From: Singulisphaera sp. GP187
Lineage (GTDB): Bacteria > Planctomycetota > Phycisphaerae > Phycisphaerales > SM1A02
Length of the DNA stretch: 44,063 bases
Direction of reading: 5' to 3'
NCBI GenBank assembly: GCA_945862215.1
Contig: CAMAXY010000018.1
Location: 1-44,063 of the forward strand
A program made the position numbers and the translations under genes. This document shows, one piece after another, positions 31,704-35,612 of this stretch. Position 1 is the stretch's first letter. Each line of letters opens with the position of its first letter. The notes beneath the pieces are model-generated. The model did not search any database. It was not told where the DNA came from and was given only the letters and a program-made list of their open reading frames with translations.

Positions 31704-32485
31704 CTGCAATCCTCGCCATTTCTATCGGAAACACCCGTACGCACATTGGCCGCTTTCTTGACGGCGCAGAAGAACTCGATGCGAGCGAGCAAATTCTAAA
31801 CACCGAATCCGAACTGATCGTTGAACGCATCGCGCATCACTGGGAGAATCTCGATGACGACGAGGCCGTCGTGGCGATTGCAAGCGTGAACGACGTATTT
31901 GCAAAGCCACTTGAAGCGCGCATCTCTGGAAGACTCGGCGTCGATGTCTCTCGCATCGGTCGTGATATTGCTCCTGCGATTTCGACGAAGCTCGATCCCA
32001 AGGCGAAGACTGGCGTCGATCGTTTACTCTGTGCGACTGCGGCGTTCCATCGCCTCAAGCAAGCGTGCATTGTGATTGATGCGGGGACTGCGATCACGAT
32101 CGACTTTGTCGATGGCGTTGGGACTTTTCACGGCGGCGTGATTGCCCCTGGCGCTCAAATGCAATTGAATGCGCTGCACGAACACACCGATGCCCTGCCC
32201 CAACTTTCGTTTGCGATACCCGACAACGAACCGCACGGTCGCAATACAGAACAAGCGATGCTGCAAGGAGTCTTTTTTGGTATTCGCGGACTTGTGCAGC
32301 GCATGATCGAGCGTTATGCCGACTCATTTGGATCTTTCCCGATGGTTGTCGCGACTGGCGGCGATGCGCAAGCGATCTTGGAAAACGAAGACTTCGTCGA
32401 TCGAGTTGTTCCCGACCTGATTTTGCTTGGGATCGCTATTTCCGTCATCGCTGGATTCGTCGATGAATCAGCAGCCGAAGAATAA
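31700..32485 (+). CDS. coaX: Type III pantothenate kinase
   Basis: A 261-residue CoaX, the first enzyme of coenzyme A synthesis (pantothenate to 4'-phosphopantothenate). Family motifs visible are GVDRLLCATAAF (Asp108), IDAGTAITIDFVD (127-135) and HGGVIAPGAQM. The N-terminal phosphate loop normally reads DxGNT; here it is SIGNTRTHIG with Ser8 in place of the Asp, a notable change at a residue usually needed for ATP/metal binding. The GTG at 31700 overlaps the transaminase stop (GTGA) and is the only start that gives a normal N-terminus. Its own 3' end overlaps the GTPase gene by 23 bases. Confidence 0.9.
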   Translation: MTAILAISIGNTRTHIGRFLDGAEELDASEQILNTESELIVERIAHHWENLDDDEAVVAIASVNDVFAKPLEARISGRLGVDVSRIGRDIAPAISTKLDPKAKTGVDRLLCATAAFHRLKQACIVIDAGTAITIDFVDGVGTFHGGVIAPGAQMQLNALHEHTDALPQLSFAIPDNEPHGRNTEQAMLQGVFFGIRGLVQRMIERYADSFGSFPMVVATGGDAQAILENEDFVDRVVPDLILLGIAISVIAGFVDESAAEE

Positions 32486-33545
32486 ATCACAGATCGAATT
32501 GATCTGGGAGACACCGCCCTGCGCTGGAGCGGTGGCAATCGGCAGATTAAATTCACTTGATGCCACGGCGCTCGATGCGGTGCTGTGCGAGTTGATGGGG
32601 CGAACTCTCAATGAAAAATCCGCTGCGAAAGTCGGCCAGATCGTGCACGCAAACTTTGCGGACATCGACGATGGATTGATCGTGCGCTTGTCAGAAACAA
32701 GTGCGTTAATCATGCCCCATGGTGGACCACGAATTGTTGCGCGAATTGATGCGCGACTCGATACATGGATGCGAGCGCACGGCCAGAGCGAGTCTCGCGA
32801 ACAAACGCGCAAAGATTCTGCTGCGCAAGAAAGTACAAAATGCCAACTGGCATATCCCGAAGCTCGCTGCTTTCGCGAAGCCCTCGCACTTTCTGCAATC
32901 TCGACCGCTGCGAGTGCGCGCGCAATTCCGATCTTGCTTGCGCAGCCAAAGCGAATCGCCGCCGCAGTTGCGCGCGGATGGGTGGTTGATGCGAATTCGA
33001 TTTCTCGTGCGCAGCGACTTGCTCGCTTGCTTCATCCTCCGCGTATTGTTGCCGTCGGCGCAGCGAATGTAGGAAAGTCATCGCTCTTGAACGCAGTCGC
33101 TGGCCGTACGGTCGCAATCGCGATGGACTTTGCTGGAACGACTCGCGATGCAGTCGCAGCGCGCGTCGAACTTGATGGACTCGTTGCGGACTGGTTCGAT
33201 ACGCCAGGAATTCGCGAGACGAATGATCCTGTTGAAGCCGCCGCGCAAAGCATCGCTGCGAAGTTGCGCACTGGAGCAAGTTTGATTCTCCAGATTTCTG
33301 CTCCAGGGCAGCCCAGCCCGCGTGTTGAATCTGATGTGCCGAGTATCAAAGTTTGCACGCGCATCGATCTCGATCCAAGATGCGAATCTGCGGAGGCGTG
33401 CGCAGCAAGCGTGCATGTCAGTGCGACGCAGCGAACTGGGTTTGTTGAACTCGCGTGCGCAATTCGGCGCGCAATGATTTGTGACGACGACTTCTCCAGC
33501 GACGAGCCATGGATTTTTCATCCAGAGTTGATCGCTAGAACATAG
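32463..33545 (+). CDS. MnmE/TrmE-like GTPase, divergent and short
   Basis: A 360-residue protein. The C-terminal part is a TrmE-type G domain: G1 GAANVGKSS (199-207), G2 GTTRD (225-229), G3 DTPG (246-249) and a G5-like VSATQRTG. The G4 guanine-specificity motif is CTRIDL rather than NKxD. The N-terminal region (AIGRLNSLDATALDAVL, LPHGG-like MPHGGPR) recalls the MnmE folate domain. E. coli MnmE has about 454 residues and ends in CxGK for tRNA U34 modification; here the tail stops at HPELIART without it. It may therefore be a paralogue not acting in tRNA modification. It overlaps coaX and ends the dat-coaX cluster. Confidence 0.8.
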   Translation: MNQQPKNKSQIELIWETPPCAGAVAIGRLNSLDATALDAVLCELMGRTLNEKSAAKVGQIVHANFADIDDGLIVRLSETSALIMPHGGPRIVARIDARLDTWMRAHGQSESREQTRKDSAAQESTKCQLAYPEARCFREALALSAISTAASARAIPILLAQPKRIAAAVARGWVVDANSISRAQRLARLLHPPRIVAVGAANVGKSSLLNAVAGRTVAIAMDFAGTTRDAVAARVELDGLVADWFDTPGIRETNDPVEAAAQSIAAKLRTGASLILQISAPGQPSPRVESDVPSIKVCTRIDLDPRCESAEACAASVHVSATQRTGFVELACAIRRAMICDDDFSSDEPWIFHPELIART

Positions 33546-33568
33546 ATCGGCGATTGCTTTGCAGTTCC

Positions 33569-33724
33569 GCTGCTTGATTCGCGTCTCCGCCGTGGAAAAG
33601 TTTGCTCGGGCGAGTTCCGCAGGCGGCTGACGGAACTTGGAAACAAAATTTCGTAAACCGGATCGTGTCAGTCGCCGAGGACTGTCTGAGCCCCGAGCAA
33701 ATTTTTCTGCGGCGCTCACACAAA
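33569..33724 (+). ncRNA. Structured repeat element, copy 1 (candidate RNA)
   Basis: A 156-base unit repeated at 33818-33973 with 16 differences and no gaps. Positions 33588-33610 pair with 33692-33714 in 23 consecutive pairs, three of them G-U and none mismatched. Inside, 33622-33631 pair with 33667-33676 (10 pairs, one G-U), enclosing a 35-base A-rich loop. Between the two stems is an asymmetric internal loop with a possible short helix (33613-33618 with 33679-33683). All G-U pairs are allowed only if the plus strand is the RNA; on the minus strand they would be A-C. It follows the dat-coaX-GTPase cluster by 24 bases. I do not recognise it as a known RNA family. Confidence 0.6.
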
Positions 33725-33750
33725 AACACACAACAAATCAGTTGAGTCCA

Positions 33751-33769
33751 CGCCGCGCTCGCTGCGGCG
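33751..33769. repeat. GC-rich hairpin after repeat copy 1
   Basis: CGCCGC (33751-33756) pairs with GCGGCG (33764-33769) across a 7-base loop. A very similar hairpin lies after copy 2 at 34032-34049, so each structured unit is followed, after an A/C-rich spacer, by a CGCCGC hairpin. There is no T-run on either side. Confidence 0.55.
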
Positions 33770-33817
33770 ATTGTTGGTGTGCTGTGATGTTCCGTACTTG
33801 CAGTTCCCTTCTGTTCG

Positions 33818-33973
33818 GCTGCTTGATCTGCGTGTCCGCCGTGGAAAAGTTTGCTCGGGCGAGTTCCGCAGGCGGTCGACTGCACTTGTAAACATATTTT
33901 CGCAAACCAGATCGTGTCGACCGCCGAGGACTGTCTGAGCCCCGAGCGAATTTTTCTGCGGCGCTCACACAAA
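33818..33973 (+). ncRNA. Structured repeat element, copy 2 (candidate RNA)
   Basis: Same length as copy 1, offset by 249 bases. The outer stem is 33837-33859 with 33941-33963; the A-to-G change at 33948 turns an A-U pair into a G-U pair. The inner stem is 33871-33880 with 33916-33925: GGCGGTCGAC with GTCGACCGCC, perfectly paired. Compared with copy 1 (GGCGGCTGAC with GTCAGTCGCC), two base pairs changed on both sides (C-G to U-A, U-A to C-G) and one G-U became G-C. That is covariation preserving the helix. The 35-base loop and the flanks carry most of the remaining substitutions. After it come A/C-rich CTCACAAA-type repeats up to about 34030. Confidence 0.6.
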
Positions 33974-34031
33974 CTCACAAACTCACGCACATTTTCCACG
34001 GCACTCAAACAAACTCTCACAAACTCACACT

Positions 34032-34049
34032 CGCCGCGCAGCCGCGGCG
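34032..34049. repeat. GC-rich hairpin between repeat copy 2 and fabI
   Basis: CGCCGCG (34032-34038) pairs with CGCGGCG (34043-34049) across a 4-base loop. It lies 3 bases beyond the stop codon of the minus-strand enoyl-ACP reductase gene and could protect or end that transcript, although no T-run follows on the minus strand. Confidence 0.55.
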
Positions 34050-34052
34050 TAC

Positions 34053-34832
34053 TCAAAGACCCATGATGCCATACCCACTATCCACATAAACCACCTGCCC
34101 TGTGATTCCAGATGCGAGTGGCGAAAGCAGAAACGCGCTGGCGTTACCAACTTCGATCGGCGTGATATTTCTGCGCAGCGGCGCCTTCTTCACAACCCAG
34201 TCGAGAATTTCCGAGAATCCGCCGACAGCCATCGCGCTCATCGTGCGCACTGGTCCAGCAGAAACTGCGTTGACTCGAATGTTTTTCGCGCCGAGTTCCA
34301 TCGCCAAATAACGAGTCGATGATTCGAGGGCAGACTTCGCGACTCCCATCACGTTGTAACCAGGAACAGCTTTTTCGGCTCCGTAATACGACATCGCAAC
34401 CATCGATCCACCGTTGGTCATCAGCGGTGCTGCTCGATTCGCCATCGCGATATACGTATATGCCGAAATATCCAGCGCATTCGTGAAGACGGATCGTGGC
34501 GTTCCCGCGAACTTGTCAGGTCGCAGCCAATCCTTGTCCGCATATGCAATGCAGTGCACAAGAAAGTCAATCGAACCAAAGTCCGCGCCAATTTTGGCAA
34601 ATGTTGCGTCGAGTTGCTCGTCGCTGCTCGCATCGAGCGGCATCATCCACGGTTCCTTCACGCCAAGCGATTCAACCGCCTTGCGCGTACGCCGTTCATT
34701 TTTCTCGCCAGGAATATGCGTGAAGAGACATTCAGCCCCTTCGCGCAGCAAACTCTCCGCAATCGATGTTGCGATCGAATTTTCGTTGGCGACTCCGACA
34801 ACCAAACCACGCATTCCATTCATAAATCCCAT
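34053..34832 (-). CDS. fabI: Enoyl-[acyl-carrier-protein] reductase (NADH)
   Basis: A 259-residue FabI, the last reductive step of fatty-acid elongation. Typical features are the atypical nucleotide motif GLVVGVANENSIATSIA, HCIAYAD, and the FabI-specific Tyr-(x6)-Lys pair in GYNVMGVAK, with SAGPVRTMSA near the substrate loop and VVYVDSGYGIMG at the end. The start at 34832 (MGFMNGMRG) matches FabI length; a further in-frame ATG upstream at 34955 would add 41 atypical residues. An ATG at 34823 with GGGA before it is an alternative. The gene is divergent from the SOUL lipoprotein gene at 34944. Confidence 0.94.
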   Translation of the reverse strand: MGFMNGMRGLVVGVANENSIATSIAESLLREGAECLFTHIPGEKNERRTRKAVESLGVKEPWMMPLDASSDEQLDATFAKIGADFGSIDFLVHCIAYADKDWLRPDKFAGTPRSVFTNALDISAYTYIAMANRAAPLMTNGGSMVAMSYYGAEKAVPGYNVMGVAKSALESSTRYLAMELGAKNIRVNAVSAGPVRTMSAMAVGGFSEILDWVVKKAPLRRNITPIEVGNASAFLLSPLASGITGQVVYVDSGYGIMGL

Positions 34833-34943
34833 ATCGGTAAGAGTAATGCAAAGCCGCAAATGTGGCGCAACCGAATCGAGGTCGGTACAGTTGGCAAAGT
34901 CCTCGCGATTAACAGGATCATTTTCACTCTTTACATCACTGCC

Positions 34944-35612
34944 ATGAACCAACAAAAAACTCCATCGATTCCCTCACGCTCGCGACTTCGGCCGCGCACC
35001 ATCGTTGGCATCTTGATTGCCGCAGGTACCGCGCTGACGGTCGTTGGTTGCGTGCGGCAATCAGGCAAAGTCGTCTATTTTCACGAGGCAGAATTGCCAA
35101 CGGGCTGGCCGCTCCTGACTGAAGTCGGCGTGGTCGAAGTGAAGGAATATCCGCAGTACCGCGAGGCCGTTGTCACCAAGAATGATGGCGCGGGCAGCGA
35201 TGAAAAGATGGGGCCGATGTTCGGAACTCTTTTCAATCACATATCAAAGAACGATATTCCGATGACCGCTCCAGTTGAGATGGAGTATTCACAGAACGAC
35301 GCGCGCGCGATGACATCGATGGCGTTTCTTTATCGCACGAACGAAACGGGAACTCTCGGTACCGACGGCCAGGTCGTCGTTCGCGAGGTCGCACCACGCA
35401 CATATGCGAGCGTTGGTGTTCGTGGCAGTTATAACGATGACAACTTCGCGGGTGGTTTAGCGATCGTCAACGCATGGCTTGCCGCAAATCCGCAGTGGCG
35501 CGCTGATGGCACACCGCGTTTCTTTGGTTACAACAGCCCGTTCATTCTTTGGTTCTGGAAGTACGGTGAAGTACAAGTACCAGTCGTTGAAAGCGTGAAG
35601 ACTTCTGCGTGA
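34944..35612 (+). CDS. SOUL haem-binding family lipoprotein
   Basis: A 222-residue protein with a lipoprotein signal (IVGILIAAGTALTVVGC; lipobox Cys about residue 36). The mature part has the SOUL/HBP pattern: VGVVEVKEYPQYREAVVT, FGTLFNHISKNDIPMTAPVE, MAFLYRTNET and a late GYNSPFILWFWKYGEV. Eukaryotic SOUL proteins bind haem or related tetrapyrroles; bacterial members are poorly characterised. The ATG at 34944 is used because it opens directly on the signal region; the preceding in-frame sequence overlaps the divergent fabI gene. Confidence 0.88.
   Translation: MNQQKTPSIPSRSRLRPRTIVGILIAAGTALTVVGCVRQSGKVVYFHEAELPTGWPLLTEVGVVEVKEYPQYREAVVTKNDGAGSDEKMGPMFGTLFNHISKNDIPMTAPVEMEYSQNDARAMTSMAFLYRTNETGTLGTDGQVVVREVAPRTYASVGVRGSYNDDNFAGGLAIVNAWLAANPQWRADGTPRFFGYNSPFILWFWKYGEVQVPVVESVKTSA

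Follow-up and report, generated by a model that had tools for sequence, protein, structure and literature searches.

What kind of element occupies, in two copies, the gap between two convergent genes in the 44,063-nt stretch of DNA analysed here (the window; Singulisphaera sp. GP187, contig CAMAXY010000018.1, positions 1 to 44,063)? A first-pass annotation, made from the letters alone, saw there a duplicated structured element and a candidate novel RNA family, with an origin akin to a miniature inverted-repeat transposable element (MITE) as a further guess. We find that the element is indeed structured and covarying and has no match in Rfam, but that the pair is not private to this locus: it belongs to a high-copy family that occurs in several phyla and lies near gene ends. 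It is very likely that this structured family is real, and we put it forward with little reservation. What its copies do is a more tentative matter, for which we lean towards a boundary element that would act as RNA.

At the window locus the two units form a direct repeat of 167 nt (33564-33730 and 33813-33979; 89% identity) with a spacing of 249, in agreement with the near-identical, spaced unit first described, and the element proper takes up 33588-33714 in copy 1 and 33837-33963 in copy 2, both on the plus strand. In copy 1, the repeat arms and the fold delimit an outer helix whose 5' arm (33588-33610) and 3' arm (33692-33714) are 23 nt each and 87% complementary; between them, as placed by alignments, lie the core and inner hairpin (33611-33691), comprising CGAGTT, a 3-bp stem (P2), a GCA/GA loop, a 10-bp inner stem and TGTCTGAGC. 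The corresponding parts of copy 2 are the 5' arm at 33837-33859 and the 3' arm at 33941-33963, both set by the copy 1 coordinates plus 249 and by the fold, and the core with inner hairpin at 33860-33940, set by alignments. The two copies adopt a common fold (minimum free energies of -66.8 and -63.9 kcal/mol, z about -6) that none of 200 shuffles equalled in stability, and their minus strands fold less stably (-53.6 each, z of -4.5 and -3.6). The shared fold claimed by the first-pass annotation is thereby confirmed, and its three changes in the inner stem, which reads CGGCUGAC/GUCAGUCG in copy 1 and CGGUCGAC/GUCGACCG in copy 2, are correct: from the first copy to the second, one U-A pair became C-G, one C-G became U-A, and one G-U became G-C. 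A minus-strand open reading frame (ORF; 33535-34056, 173 aa) spans both copies, and the view that protein selection does not explain the pattern is supported. Among 57 copies of the source genome, length varies by 1-2 nt (129-131 nt), and a diverse set ranges from 61 to 119 nt (the core and 16 nt of each outer arm), so that a conserved minus-strand frame is unlikely; because element length differs among copies, we rejected protein coding on that strand.

The rest of the source genome (2.8 Mb, Phycisphaerales) holds many more copies. Model searches, whose E-values are rough, give 62 to 80 matches, and a DNA search gives 63, which group into 39 sites. When the 57 full copies are aligned, two near-invariant strands, GGGCGAGTTCCGCAGG and CGAGGACTGTCTGAGCC, come to lie opposite each other in the fold; mean pairwise identity is 0.998 and 0.980 on these core strands vs 0.77 in the inner loop. 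The outer helix falls into classes with matched changes on its two sides (CTCTCGGG/CCCGAGAG, CTGCCGGG/CCCGGCGG and TTGCTCGGG/CCCGAGCAA). In this alignment both sides have changed at 5 pairs (0.8 in shuffles), covariation is 0.061 (0.050 in shuffles), and four of five pair measures beat the shuffles, the fifth doing so weakly (19 of 500); the signal is blurred by the shifts between outer-helix classes. Within the genus, model R1 has matches in 16 of 19 genomes; it has them in one of six from other genera of the family and in none of 16 elsewhere in the order. In relatives, both stems have been replaced while the core is kept.

Because relatives exchange both stems and keep the core, we scanned other taxa for the core pattern itself. 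The scan of the GTDB species collection asked for both core strands at a distance of 9-69 nt, with 22 fixed bases, for which about two matches are expected by chance at equal base frequencies; it returned at least 98 stretches, and among the 80 matches listed, 22 came from 15 genomes outside the genus. The titles of these listed matches name Myxococcales, Omnitrophota/Omnitrophica, Actinobacteria, Coriobacteriia, Acidobacteria, Krumholzibacteriota, Latescibacterota, Proteobacteria, Deltaproteobacteria, Chloroflexi and one untitled bacterium, and most of the matches carry GGCGAGTTCCGCAG...GAGGAC(C)TGTCTGAGCC within long stems. A second model, R2, built from 41 diverse copies, confirms the element in 14 of these 15, each of which has between 1 and 90 matches; in the Chloroflexi genome R2 finds none, and its pattern match (L168) was dropped as chance. 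The highest copy numbers outside the genus belong to two metagenome-assembled genomes, one deltaproteobacterial (UWPOB_DELTA5, here G075; 90 R2 matches) and one of the Coriobacteriaceae (G073; 45 matches).

Surveys of whole genomes with R2 scored only the best candidates of each genome under stricter filters (13 per genome in Planctomycetota, 16 in Coriobacteriia, 21 in Myxococcota, 27 in Omnitrophota and 49 in the phylum of the Latescibacterota genome), and their tallies and copy numbers are lower bounds: the source genome shows 13 matches in the Planctomycetota survey vs 80 in a full R2 search. With this in mind, matches occur in at least 140 of 246 genomes of the Coriobacteriia, the class of a Coriobacteriaceae genome from the scan and one that includes cultured members. 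They occur in at least 14 of 145 Omnitrophota genomes, in at least 13 of 80 in the Latescibacterota genome's phylum (to which the Krumholzibacteriota genome also belongs), in at least 3 of 188 Myxococcota genomes and in at least 4 of 294 Planctomycetota genomes. The low rates in Myxococcota and Planctomycetota, GC-rich groups included, speak for the specificity of the model.

Across these copies the invariant part is an asymmetric loop, C-GAGUU on one strand and UGUYUGA-G on the other. It is followed inward by a short, covarying P2, usually a GA-type loop and a variable inner hairpin, and is enclosed by an outer helix of about 25 bp that also covaries, for a total size of about 60-130 nt. The clearest covariation comes from 43 distinct Coriobacteriia copies in which 12 or more of 20 outer positions pair: 94.3% of alignment cells are paired, both sides have changed at 22 of 25 pairs, and covariation is 0.732, compared with 0.173 in shuffled alignments and a maximum of 0.179 when the strands are slid against each other. 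These copies were found by a structure-based model, which inflates the percentage paired and does not explain the excess of covariation over shuffles. One pair of P2 is C-G in 33 of the 43 and U-A in the other 10. In 13 copies from a single Latescibacterota chromosome covariation is 0.375 (0.175 shuffled, slid maximum 0.104), and in the cross-phylum set of 41 copies it is 0.387 (0.151 shuffled, slid maximum 0.241). Compensation can also be followed at individual sites, as at the orthologues of the window locus, where GTTTGCTC/GAGCAAAT stands against GTTCGCTC/GAGCGAAC in the relative G016, and at the 3' end of nrdD in two Coriobacteriia genomes (L328 vs L334). Model searches of the kind that the first-pass annotation had proposed yield many homologues in planctomycete and other genomes, with covariation above shuffles on most measures. 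Two variants (L242 in genome G139, and L347 in the Coriobacteriia) join P2 and the inner stem into one continuous helix with no GA loop, which suggests that the GAGUU/UGUYUGAG loop alone may be the essential part.

The stems also carry a polarity. Among non-standard outer pairs, G-T on the motif strand outnumbers A-C by 181 to 36 in 102 genus copies, by 67 to 33 in 48 copies from other phyla and by 31 to 10 in the 43 Coriobacteriia copies. Counted by copy, G-T prevails over A-C in 85 genus copies vs 7 (10 ties), in 29 vs 10 from other phyla (9 ties) and in 16 vs 4 of the Coriobacteriia (23 ties). The Coriobacteriia register was picked with G-T scored as a pair, so these counts lean to G-T; the genus and other-phyla counts handle G-T and A-C alike, and there, as in the counts of convergent sites given below, a filter left out copies in which the outer pairs flanking the core depart from the main type. 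The excess means that a single strand of fixed polarity folds, and we consider RNA likelier than single-stranded DNA as the folding strand. In naming the plus strand as the functional RNA, the first-pass annotation was right about the G-U bias and about the strand that folds better; the bias fits a folded RNA or a folded DNA and by itself is no proof of RNA.

Where, then, do the copies lie? At the window locus both sit between a GTPase gene (MMR_HSR1 domain match; 32427-33545, plus strand), whose stop lies 66 nt 5' of the copy-1 core, and a convergent gene of enoyl-ACP reductase type (adh_short_C2 domain match; 34053-34955, minus strand). This arrangement predominates in the source genome, where 24 of 34 assignable sites lie between convergent genes vs 12 of 91 background gene pairs (p 1.4e-9), a count raised from 23 by assigning the window site by hand, the ORF call having given a spurious right neighbour. 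In other phyla convergent sites are enriched and are not the majority (16 of 39 vs 17 of 130 in the background; p 2.8e-4), and two of the 39 sites, all co-directional, were counted twice (L158 with L299, L173 with L294). Genes here are longest-ORF guesses, and sites with no neighbour on one side, 5 of 39 in the source genome and 3 of 42 elsewhere, are omitted. In the Coriobacteriia, 44 sites remain once 12 of 56 loci without a strict core are set aside, and sites of related species are not independent. At 30 of the 44, a gene on the opposite strand has its stop codon towards the 3' side of the motif, at a median of 37 nt from the core and in 23 cases no more than 60 nt away; at 25 of the 44, a same-strand stop lies towards the 5' side (median 94 nt, 9 within 60 nt). 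The ten neighbouring genes scanned in this class are ordinary ones: two MetRS, one ThrRS-type, two anaerobic ribonucleotide reductases, adenylosuccinate synthetase, threonine synthase, serine dehydratase alpha, one ferredoxin-type and one without a family.

Copies can be accompanied by others, or by different repeats. A second module of the arrays, on the opposite strand, proves to be a divergent member of the same family (L066, 1964-2062 minus, E 2.8e-9; in the source genome C14:45163-45245 minus, E 1.1e-8), and the arrays are therefore mosaics of inverted units. Opposite-strand pairs are seen in the genus and, outside it, at every one of the six two-copy sites, found in the genomes G061 and G071, and they have the form '<- ->'. 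Several arrays of the source genome (L017, L028, L037, L044 and others) are flanked on the gene side by short tandem units of about TCCGTGGCTG(TA), and in the relatives G014 and G018 another intergenic repeat, CACTGCGGT..AAAACGAC..TTGAACCGCAC..ATCTCACCGCAGCGA, lies beside copies (L062 at about 1960-2010, L068 at about 1530-1585). In the truncated source-genome copies L023 (2720-2790) and L046, the 3' half is replaced by a common hairpin, approximately TGGGCAA..AGTGTCGAAAAACGACACGGG.TGCCCA, which may be a second mobile palindrome or may have arisen by recurrent recombination. At the window locus, the spacer between the copies contains a terminator-like GC hairpin (33751-33769) that is separate from the element. 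Contigs end in or near element arrays at L018, L045, L048, L050 and L051, and also in G012 and G016; it thus looks as if the repeats interrupt assembly, and the real copy numbers are probably higher.

A fixed folding strand, an invariant loop and a place at gene ends lead us to favour, tentatively and at something short of even odds, a boundary element that would act as RNA at the ends of transcription units. We suggest that transcription running through a copy would produce a long hairpin, that the invariant loop in it would be bound by a putative cellular factor, and that the bound hairpin would fix or protect the 3' end and limit invasion of the neighbouring gene's end. The copies themselves would spread, be inherited and be pruned in the way of the bacterial REP and BIME repeats. 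A broader version of this idea, which we hold to be possible at rather less than even odds, is that the family forms a cross-phylum class of structured RNAs whose loop binds a conserved component of transcription or RNA decay and so marks gene ends, the copies spreading and then undergoing compensation locus by locus.

Several observations weigh against the boundary function. In the Coriobacteriia, 12 of the 44 sites have a motif strand antisense to both neighbours, and at 7 of the 44 no stop codon is faced on either side (both by heuristic ORFs); read-through would therefore not yield the folded RNA everywhere. Outside the Coriobacteriia and the source genus, copies did not seem to share one orientation towards the nearest stop. 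In the three groups counted, the 15 nt that follow the helix never contain a run of four T (0 of 48, 0 of 13 and 0 of 15 copies; the source genome and Omnitrophota lay outside this count). Pairs changed on both sides number 17 in the cross-phylum set, which does not exceed the shuffles (15.6; 83 of 500), and the G-T wobble also fits single-stranded DNA.

The last point leads to the principal alternative, which we regard as a serious possibility that falls somewhat short of an even chance: the copies would belong to a non-autonomous mobile element, the loop being the site at which a putative transposase or recombinase recognises a folded single DNA strand, and their position would reflect target choice at gene ends or purging elsewhere. 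High copy numbers in combination with a patchy spread, down to the few positive genomes of Planctomycetota and Myxococcota, are what such an element would leave, and truncated copies, composite arrays and the inverted '<- ->' pairs described above fit it as well. So does the history of the GTPase/fabI junction. In all six relatives compared (G005, G013, G014, G015, G017 and G018; G003 and G011 were left out, and in G012 and G016 a contig end interrupts the junction), the two genes abut or lie close and the element is absent, while G008 and G002 have one copy each and the source genome two. The first-pass guess of a MITE-like element gains from the element-free junction, the truncations and the arrays; the element is palindromic, and the element-free junctions have diverged too far for a target duplication to show.

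The same junction speaks for inheritance. The G002 copy has the inner loop of copy 1, and the G008 and G012 copies have that of copy 2; we infer that the pair predates these species, which have since pruned it in different ways, and on these grounds we rejected a recent private duplication. The history of the site would then be a gain in one branch, probably followed by inheritance with compensation. Outer helices that differ among copies, and change in step even at inherited sites, are unlike what fresh transposition would produce. Nor did a general partner enzyme or a vehicle come to light. The RAYT transposase family (PF01797), in a search whose controls matched in 5 of 14, is absent from all eight genus genomes searched despite their abundant copies, and we rejected it as a general partner; it is present in 7 of 15 others, that is, in 6 of 14 element-bearing ones, including the two richest. 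These two, G075 and G073, combine the top copy numbers with 11 and 1 Y1-type genes, respectively, which would suit the mobile element. No autonomous copy was seen in a transposase search limited to PF01797. One 85-nt Coriobacteriaceae query had no match in plasmids and only three matches of 20-25 nt (E 0.7) in phages, and two exact patterns had none in viral contigs; with nothing convincing from these queries, we rejected a phage or plasmid origin.

A stand-alone small RNA or ribozyme with its own promoter, the outer helix serving as a scaffold, would account for an invariant, complex loop among covarying stems and for a motif strand that is often antisense to both neighbours. We think it unlikely, given many copies per genome beside unrelated genes and a promoter scan of the window locus whose single match was weak and lay on the other strand; no sign of a ribozyme or riboswitch turned up, neither having been tested directly. 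Ordinary bidirectional intrinsic terminators that share a loop by chance are disfavoured and quite improbable, in spite of the gene-end position, the long hairpins, the excess between convergent genes, a short U stretch in the 3' arm within the genus and four terminator-like sites at the window locus (1.3 in shuffles; one is the spacer hairpin and none is the element), since the T run is missing from all 76 copies of the three groups and an intrinsic terminator can do without an invariant internal loop and without a fixed strand.

How does the boundary element that we favour compare with what is already known? Rfam (4227 models) gives no match at E up to 1 for positions 33400-34100 and no match to the element at gathering cut-offs in the whole window, and six further loci, each from a different other genome, show at E up to 5 a single overlap, with mir-9460, whose 23.4 bits lie far below its cut-off of 85. 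With no match at a gathering cut-off, we rejected a known RNA family. The letters of the core have no description that we found in the open-licence literature, where only a 10-letter term matched any text, and the family is apparently undescribed, even though the motif is present in at least 140 of 246 Coriobacteriia genomes and scattered through other phyla.

In structure, the loop recalls the kink-turn, in its standard form a three-nt bulge next to tandem sheared G-A pairs, bound by proteins of the L7Ae type. The C-GA of the element, opposite GA-G, could form tandem G-A pairs beside the closing pair; it differs in that its longer strand has five nt (UGUYU) facing GUU, in place of a three-nt loop. 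In genomic habit it recalls the bacterial MITE-type repeats, which are small, intergenic, dispersed and often palindromic; ERIC/RU, BOX and RUP are examples (PMC2759123, PMC3049150). Our element shares these traits, with the difference that it keeps one core across phyla.

The closest likeness is to the REP/BIME/REPIN repeats, described as dispersed intergenic hairpins that are numerous in a genome, form inverted pairs, have G-T pairing in their stems and favour the ends of convergent and co-directional genes (Di Nocera, 2013; PMC3733652). Our element, too, is dispersed and intergenic, often stands in inverted pairs near gene ends and has G-T pairs in its stems. However, it is about 60-130 nt long, compared with 20-40 for REP; its conserved part is the internal loop CGAGUU/UGUYUGAG, in contrast to the terminal GTAG/CGTC tag of REP (as judged from alignments, without a scan); and its outer helix varies and covaries among copies that share one core in several phyla. 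It resembles REP/BIME in several respects, and departs from them in the features that define them, namely tag, size and RAYT. The strict core makes annotation simple and could serve as bait for a binding factor, and the family allows a direct test of whether a folded element defined by a motif marks gene ends. If the loop does bind a general factor, the family would be more than a variant of the REP/BIME-like kind, and it connects the biology of such repeats with that of structured RNAs.
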